The notes beneath the pieces are model-generated. The model made no database searches. It was not told the DNA's origin and was given only the letters and a program-made list of their open reading frames with translations. A stretch of 64,000 bases of DNA, taken from assembly GCA_021205095.1 (NCBI GenBank), contig JAJPYE010000009.1, positions 18,082 to 82,081 of the forward strand, given 5' to 3'. A program made the position numbers and the translations under genes. Shown here piece by piece: positions 1,042 through 16,080 of the stretch. Numbering within the stretch: the stretch's first letter is position 1; each line of letters begins with the position of its first letter. The stretch comes from Oscillospiraceae bacterium (lineage in GTDB: Bacteria; Bacillota; Clostridia; Oscillospirales; Oscillospiraceae).

Positions 1042-1275
1042 TAAATTTTGATAAAAAGCGAGCTTTTTATCAAAATTTAGAGATTGCGGCCCGACTGCAG
1101 CGCACGCGCCGCCCGCCTATCGGCGGTCATTGCGCACGTTTGCGGGCCGAGCGGTATTTTTTCCGACGTACACGCCGCCGGAAAAAATGATTCCATTTTA
1201 TTCGCGCCTGCGGGCGCGGGGGCTGGCCGTGCTTCGCACGGCTTCGCGGGGGGAGGGGGTTGGCCCGCTCCACAC
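1042..1275 (+). repeat. Dispersed multi-hairpin intergenic element, copy A
   Basis: 18-bp perfect stem TAAATTTTGATAAAAAGC/GCTTTTTATCAAAATTTA (1042-1079), then TTGCGGCCCGAC, a CCGCC-TATC-GGCGG hairpin, ATTTTTTCCG-ACGTACACGCCGC-CGGAAAAAAT, and GCGCC-TGCG-GGCGC; homologous to copy B. Confidence 0.8.
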
Positions 1276-14899: not shown

Positions 14900-14934
14900 A
14901 TAGAAAGTCCTTATATATCAAATTAAAATCCCCA

Positions 14935-15125
14935 AACGCAGGCACCCCCGCAGCGTGGCACCCCCGCCCGCAGGCGCAAATAAAGTTAAATCATTTTTTG
15001 CCGCGGCGTGTACGTGGCAAAAAATTCCTATCGGTCCGGGAGTGTGCGGCTTGCCCGCCAAAGGCGGGCGAGCCGCGCGCGGGTCGGGCCGCAACCCCCT
15101 CATCCGCGATGCCAATCGCGGATGA
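14935..15125 (-). repeat. Dispersed multi-hairpin intergenic element, copy B
   Basis: Minus strand: TCATCCGCGAT-TGGC-ATCGCGGATGA hairpin directly after the hprK stop, TTGCGGCCCGAC, GCCCGCC-TTT-GGCGGGC, ATTTTTTGCC-ACGTACACGCCGC-GGCAAAAAAT, TTTATTTGCGCCTGCGGGCG; collinear with copy A. Confidence 0.8.
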
Positions 15126-15126
15126 T

Positions 15127-16080
15127 TTAGTAGTCTTCTCCGGCGTCCACCAAACTGTCTACCCGCTGAGCCAGCTCCTCGGCGGCGTTGTAGCCGCTTT
15201 TCCGCTGCCGGTTGGTCATGGCGGCCAGCTCCAGAATCACGGCCAGATTCCGGCCAGGGTGGACGGGGATCGTCACCAGCGGCACGGACACGCCCAGATA
15301 TTCCGTGCTTTCCCGGTCAAGGCCCAGACGGTCGTATTTTTTGCTGCTGTCCCACAGCTCCATGGCGATGACCATGTCGATGGGGCAGGAGGAGCGGACG
15401 GCCCCGATGCCGAACACGCTGGGGACGTTGATGACCCCGATGCCCCGCAGCTCCATGAAATGCTTGATAATGGCGGGGGCGCGGCCCTCCAGGGTGGAGC
15501 GGGAGGTGCGCAGAATCTCCACCGCGTCGTCTGCAATCAGCCGATGGCCCCGCTTGATAAGCTCCAGGGCTGTCTCCGACTTGCCGATGCCGCTGTCCCC
15601 GGTAATCAGCATACCCTCTCCGTGAACCTCCACCAGCACGCCGTGGACGGTCTCTCTGGGGGCCAGGTGGCGGCGCAGGGTGCCGATGAGCTGAGCATAA
15701 AATTCCGAGGTGTCCAGATCCGTGGTCAGAACGCTGACCTGGTATTTTTTGGCCATCTCCAGACACTCTGGCAGAACCGGCTGATCGTGGGCCACGATCA
15801 CAGCGGGGACGCGCTGGCTCATAACGGCCTCGAACCCGGCCAGACGGCGTTCGTGGTCGAAATCCTCCATCAGGGTGGTTTCCGACTTTCCGATCACCTG
15901 CAGACGGGAGGCGTCGAAGTGCTTTAAATAGCCCATAAGCTGCATACCGGGCCGGTTCAGATCCACAGAGTCCACCAGCTTTTCCCCATAATCCGGGGCG
16001 GCATAAGCTACGTGCAGGGCGTGTTCCGCCGCAATCTGGGCCAGTTTAACGGAATATTTCTTTTCAAATGCTCTCTCCAT
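15127..16080 (-). CDS. hprK: HPr kinase/phosphorylase
   Basis: GVLVEVHGEGMLITGDSGIGKSETALELIKRGHRLIADDAVEI; RGIGVINVPSVFGIGAV; start MERAFEKKYSVKL at 16080. Confidence 0.95.
   Translation of the reverse strand: MERAFEKKYSVKLAQIAAEHALHVAYAAPDYGEKLVDSVDLNRPGMQLMGYLKHFDASRLQVIGKSETTLMEDFDHERRLAGFEAVMSQRVPAVIVAHDQPVLPECLEMAKKYQVSVLTTDLDTSEFYAQLIGTLRRHLAPRETVHGVLVEVHGEGMLITGDSGIGKSETALELIKRGHRLIADDAVEILRTSRSTLEGRAPAIIKHFMELRGIGVINVPSVFGIGAVRSSCPIDMVIAMELWDSSKKYDRLGLDRESTEYLGVSVPLVTIPVHPGRNLAVILELAAMTNRQRKSGYNAAEELAQRVDSLVDAGEDY

Follow-up and report, generated by a model that had tools for sequence, protein, structure and literature searches.

In the 64,000-nt stretch of an Oscillospiraceae contig analysed here (the window; JAJPYE010000009.1), two intergenic segments, copy A and copy B, carry a hairpin with the same 13-nt loop, while the two arms of its stem change together. 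The question raised by this locus was whether such paired changes belong to a folded RNA or to a DNA element, and how the element reached its sites. A sequence-only reading had described the hairpin of copy A (P4 below) rightly but placed it 2 nt off, at 1158-1190 instead of 1156-1188; it reads ATTTTTTCCG-ACGTACACGCCGC-CGGAAAAAAT. The hairpin proposed near 14990-15025 on the minus strand was confirmed as P4 of copy B. Both opening hairpins (P1) are real as well, with 11 bp in copy B and, by RNAfold, 17 bp in copy A, where 18 bp had been claimed. The features of the two copies are listed here.

1042-1079, plus strand: copy A P1, variable near-perfect opening hairpin, 17 bp, from the fold
1087-1093, plus strand: copy A P2, 5' strand CGGCCCG, partner at 1143-1149, from the fold
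1094-1142, plus strand: copy A P3, variable hairpin region inside P2, from the fold; its length and sequence vary among copies
1143-1217, plus strand: copy A conserved core (P2 3' strand, P4, spacer and P5), models R1/R2, 96.2 bits with R2
1156-1188, plus strand: copy A P4, 10-bp stem with the 13-nt loop 1166-1178 (ACGTACACGCCGC)
1204-1217, plus strand: copy A P5, hairpin GCGCCTGCGGGCGC
14915-15125, minus strand: whole insert of copy B, 211 nt, between hprK-like and murB-like genes, exactly absent in G001, G002 and G004
15100-15125, minus strand: copy B P1, perfect opening hairpin, 11 bp, from the fold; an identical hairpin remains in G005 (L268)
15085-15091, minus strand: copy B P2, 5' strand CGGCCCG, partner CGGACCG at 15032-15038 with one C-A mismatch
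14964-15038, minus strand: copy B conserved core, 88.8 bits with R2
14993-15025, minus strand: copy B P4, loop 15003-15015
14964-14977, minus strand: copy B P5 hairpin, outer pair broken, G at the end

These two copies (96 and 89 bits) were the only ones found by the core model in the window. Whole copies folded better than 200 of 200 shuffled sequences, with z = -4.1 for copy A and -3.7 for copy B. The matching peptides called in both copies had been regarded as spurious, and they are indeed frames running through the element, among them the ORF at 1084-1455 which crosses copy A.

Further copies were present in the host genome, where a 75-position covariance model recovered six full copies with E-values of 5e-19 or better, plus one weak copy. 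Exact matches to the 13-nt loop number 7 in this 2.34 Mb genome, and its reversed sequence, used as a control, has 0; the match at C48 (L006) sits in an unrelated coding-type repeat and was discarded. In the same genome a second, inverted and partial element was observed directly downstream of a copy (L005, 805-1100). At L007 (1223-1300, minus strand) an S10-Clostridia ribosomal protein leader (RF03136, 41 bits) adjoins an element copy.

Model R1 matched 34 of the 35 genomes of the genus, with 1-26 copies each, and 72 of 151 genomes in a sample of the family (58 of 106 genera). For the order, 29 of 295 genomes were matched by model R2, belonging to the five families f1 (that of the window), f3, f7, f13 and f19, and in a phylum sample of 399 genomes the only two with matches were that of the window and another member of the same family. 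Thus no copy was found outside the order Oscillospirales in that sample, an absence which is soft, like those within the order, because the filters of both searches were strict and few candidates were scored in each genome. A deeper search gave 27 copies in G066, 30 in G098, 48 in G100, 16 in G215, 52 in G261 and 70 in G279, so carriers among these gut bacteria hold from 1 to about 70 copies, counts which are not independent events since copies within a genome are related and many genomes are fragmented metagenome-assembled genomes (MAGs). The named carriers in a pattern scan were mostly Oscillospiraceae MAGs, and also included Pseudoflavonifractor gallinarum DSM 107456, Flavonifractor sp. An10, Intestinimonas and Butyricicoccus.

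In the copies measured the element is about 200 nt long and has no gene of its own. It starts with P1, a hairpin of free sequence, followed by P2 (consensus about GCGGCCYG/CRGGCYGA), which encloses the highly variable P3; then come GAGAAGT, P4 with its 10 bp and 13-nt loop, an A/T-rich spacer, P5 (about GCGCCTGCGGGCGC) and GAACTCTGCGAGGC, after which complete copies finish with CTTTTTCGACAGnCTG. A tail like GAACTCTGCGAGGC lies at most 70 nt from P4 in 148 of 216 copies and was lost from both window copies. Hairpins like P1 were detected in 158 of 199 copies with 122 distinct arms, by a detection that favours perfect arms. The partners of P2 are copy-specific: an exact 7-bp partner exists in 94 of 193 copies, against 13 of 885 pairings with the strand of another copy. 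In three loci of genus relatives (L022, L025 and L027) a conserved block some 100 nt long (GTCGGAAC...CAAAACTCGA...), possibly a nested element, stands in place of P3.

Direct repeats flank 47 of 193 copies, all in relatives, and 45 of them are palindromic, with a length of 20-60 nt and a median of 33 nt; controls with mismatched flanks gave 0/128 and 0/82. A T-rich stretch follows the downstream repeat in 31 of the 47 cases and the upstream repeat in 8, while an A-rich stretch precedes the upstream repeat in 24 and the downstream repeat in 8. Since the A-tract precedes the upstream repeat and the T-tract follows the downstream one, the duplicated unit is the terminator hairpin itself; it is these surrounding tracts that mark the repeats as intrinsic terminators. 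At the duplicated junctions the element ends in the inverted repeats CAGnCTGTCGAAAAAG and CTTTTTCGACAGnCTG. The duplication was seen in 17 of 19 copies of G098, which suggests a recent burst; the copies of G261 and G279 have essentially no palindromic duplications, and for the six copies of the window's genome no flanking duplication could be detected. A clean empty site for a copy with a terminator duplication was not found among the loci examined.

At least one gene 3' end adjoins 159 of the 168 copies that have two called neighbours. With neighbours scored by codon usage (an orientation count from simple ORFs is confounded by spurious frames), 178 copies comprised 76 in convergent, 55 in sense codirectional, 28 in antisense codirectional and 9 in divergent contexts, and the core overlapped a called frame in 15. 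This location fits insertion at gene ends. The earlier view of a dispersed, non-coding, mostly intergenic and mobile element was thus borne out by the copies in the genome and its relatives, by their positions and by the evidence of mobility. Other palindromic repeat families occupy the same niches, e.g. those of the CCCCCTTGTCAAAGGGGG type and of the CGCGGGAAATCGCG...TTACCAATTTCCCGCG type (the hprK-murB gap at L290, L291 and L295; L398-L457 in G261/G279).

The locus of copy B, where the gene names hprK and murB were given by reading the sequence, was compared among congeners. The congeners G001, G002 and G004 lack exactly window positions 14915-15125, and G005 retains a remnant of P1 and the 3' tail only. 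Because the P1 of G005 is letter for letter that of copy B, the insertion is likely to be older than the split of G000, the window's genome, and G005; the empty sites could either represent the ancestral state or result from precise loss. The remaining congeners have their own version of the element, other palindromic repeats or nothing between hprK and murB. In seven orthologues of 14900-15130 (L272, L276, L280, L282, L285, L292 and L294) the tail GCGAGG lies a few bases before the murB start, where it looks like a ribosome-binding site, a possible case of domestication.

Compensatory change was maintained in a larger alignment, as had been expected: over 62 distinct sequences, 99.1% of the P4 and P5 cells were paired and 13 of the 15 P4/P5 pairs had two-sided changes, to which neither shuffles nor register shifts came near. 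The loop, previously called invariant, is conserved and nearly so, with three main versions across the order. It holds extra pairs at positions 2-12 (C:G or G:C) and 3-11 (G:C or A:T), and its positions 4/10 are T/C or C/T (162 and 50 copies), rarely C/C (4) and never T/T. These linked pyrimidine-pyrimidine states are explained by no standard pair. The idea that self-complementary loops form a kissing contact was dropped, since inspection of the sequences showed such complementarity in some loop versions only.

A structured RNA, either cis-regulatory or a small RNA, whose stems are kept by selection on the transcript, would account for the strong two-sided covariation, the conserved loop and its extra pairs, and also for the likely location in 3' untranslated regions with a sense bias (the upstream gene is on the same strand in 135 of 174 copies). 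Stems maintained as RNA are expected to carry G-U pairs. In the 193 copies found by the models, however, P4 had 5 G-U and 15 A-C and P5 had 6 G-U and 10 A-C. Because the model could bias these counts, 234 copies were also located by the 3' tail and the loop alone, with the arms unused; their P4 (sites with fewer than 5 pairs left out) comprised 2304 Watson-Crick, 7 G-U, 17 A-C and 12 other among 2340 pairs, and 203 of the 234 had perfect 10/10 arms. G-U pairs at the rate usual for RNA were thus not found, the tRNA stems of the same loci giving 18 G-U in 171 pairs, from 8 tRNAs only. With G-U nearly absent and mismatches that do not favour it over A-C, the simplest reading is that the stems are maintained in DNA, and the proposed selection on a folded RNA was not supported. 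The Rfam check that had been suggested gave no credible family for the element at the gathering threshold or at a permissive one, and nothing at gathering score in the window; the best sub-threshold match over the element was Xoo1, with 26.5 bits where 70 are needed. Against the transcript stand also the two window copies, of which A is antisense and B sense to its flanking genes, the 28 copies lying antisense between codirectional genes, the lack of a constant downstream gene, and the terminator duplications, empty sites and remnants, so a structured RNA is unlikely. The arms could instead be homogenised by template switching which perfects imperfect palindromes, giving covariation without selection on the stem, and this process, compatible with a mobile element, is a real though not the leading prospect. 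It is documented for E. coli (PMC7202029) and yeast (PMC3820800). Arms that are mostly perfect or absent, missing G-U intermediates and the 122 different, almost perfect P1 arms (perfect ones being favoured in detection) are in line with it, but it leaves unexplained the conserved 13-nt loop, the linked T4/C10 and C4/T10 states and the conservation of stem length across the order. Our best guess is that mobilisation involves recognition of the conserved core (P2-P5, chiefly the P4 loop), which would be retained as a DNA hairpin or cruciform. More speculatively, P4 might be read as folded DNA, in a cruciform or single strand, by a protein that contacts the asymmetric loop and leaves the stem sequence free, while one arm is rewritten from the other by copying at the time of mobilisation or replication; the stems would then co-evolve without RNA. 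If true, the element would represent a new type of non-autonomous mobile element, one that is read by its structure.

A candidate partner was revealed in G100, which carries 48 element copies and an intact IS1182 transposase (NF033551, 386 bits against a cut-off of 270). The ends of this IS1182 are AGACTGTCGAAAAAC..GTTCTTCGACAGTCT, with a duplicated palindrome on both sides. Further IS1182 copies in the same bacterial family have ends in common with the element, and on the left several show the same hairpin facing inward; intact copies lie at palindromes. In copies with intact junctions the terminal inverted repeats of the element are IS1182 ends; in the window's copies they are decayed or absent. 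The opening hairpin, which had been noted as perfect and unrelated between copies, is in this way explained by IS1182-family ends with a hairpin of free sequence. Close IS1182 relatives occurred in 19 of 70 element-bearing genomes and 4 of 79 without it (Fisher p 2e-4), in a hand-built table which assumes that all element-sampled genomes were in the IS1182 search and lists the negatives incompletely. Of the 20 copy-bearing genomes searched, only 3 had IS1182 genes scoring above the curated cut-off; none at all was found in the window's genome, nor any in G066, G261 and G279 with their many copies, and many of the copies may thus no longer be able to move. At its right end the element has no inward hairpin of the kind present in IS1182, and P2-P5 were not seen in the autonomous IS1182 copies that were read, so the core does not appear to be simply a deleted IS.

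Most probably the element is a MITE-like transposable element, short and non-autonomous, that belongs to the IS1182 type and inserts at terminator hairpins. A DDE transposase of the IS1182 family, supplied in trans, would recognise the ends CAGnCTGTCGAAAAAG... with the inward hairpin P1 and join them to a target palindrome, in practice an intrinsic-terminator hairpin, by steps that may follow the model published for IS1272. The target hairpin would then often stand on both sides, and the element would therefore lie in the 3' region of a gene while a terminator with its T-tract survives downstream. Judged from their relatives, the window's own copies were presumably mobile as well. It is highly improbable that the element is a REP/BIME-like repeat moved by a Y1 (RAYT/TnpA) transposase reading the hairpin and its 5' flank GAGAAG: the conserved flank, the intergenic sites and the high copy number would agree with this, and some Y1 transposase exists in half of the tested genomes including that of the window, but PF01797 was unmatched in 10 of 20 copy-bearing genomes (G066, G098, G104, G125, G151, G169, G179, G261, G279 and G403), so the suggested partner was rejected as a general mobiliser. 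Y1 transposition is not known to involve either terminal inverted repeats or duplicated hairpins. One Y1 transposase of the window's genome is split into two pieces (G000:C32:71236-71599). There is equally little to expect from an IS30-family mobiliser of the IS1630 kind, which has the same type of target behaviour, whereas the element's ends and inward hairpin match IS1182-family copies of the same bacteria.

We conclude that this repeat, widely distributed among gut bacteria of the Oscillospirales, forms a new family, MITE-like and of IS1182 type. No published description of it in Oscillospiraceae was found in the literature searched. It also gives a warning, as RNA-like covariation of textbook quality here accompanies DNA-type pairing, and covariation alone would have given a false RNA family. 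Like REP/BIME with RAYT, the element is palindromic, extragenic and of high copy number, but it is larger, has terminal inverted repeats and target duplication, and lacks a Y1 transposase in half of the copy-bearing genomes tested. With BOX and RUP (PMC3049150, PMC10969869) it shares a short, non-coding, multi-copy and partly modular form (variable P3) and presumed mobilisation in trans; unlike them, it is limited to one order, has stem arms that change together from species to species on either side of a conserved asymmetric loop, and duplicates the palindrome when it inserts at terminators. According to the title of Calcutt 1999 cited in PMC3317919, inverted repeats are both targeted and duplicated by IS1630 (IS30 family, Mycoplasma fermentans), and duplications of 16-26 bp are listed in that paper; IS1630 is autonomous and belongs to another transposase family. 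The closest parallel is IS1272 (IS1182 family, Staphylococcus), which is reported to target inverted repeats of any sequence and has ends that form hairpins. In the insertions observed for it the stem-loop was replaced and not duplicated, while one branch of its model (Fig. 13, 3b-6b) duplicates the target stem-loop on both sides (Wan et al. 2017, PMC5678879). The element resembles it in palindrome targets, hairpin ends and the duplication branch, and the IS1182 of its host bacteria shares its ends. It differs from the autonomous IS1272 in having no transposase and in a multi-hairpin core unseen in the IS copies examined, and it offers natural palindrome duplication by IS1182-type ends at terminators, an outcome allowed by the IS1272 model and unobserved in PMC5678879.
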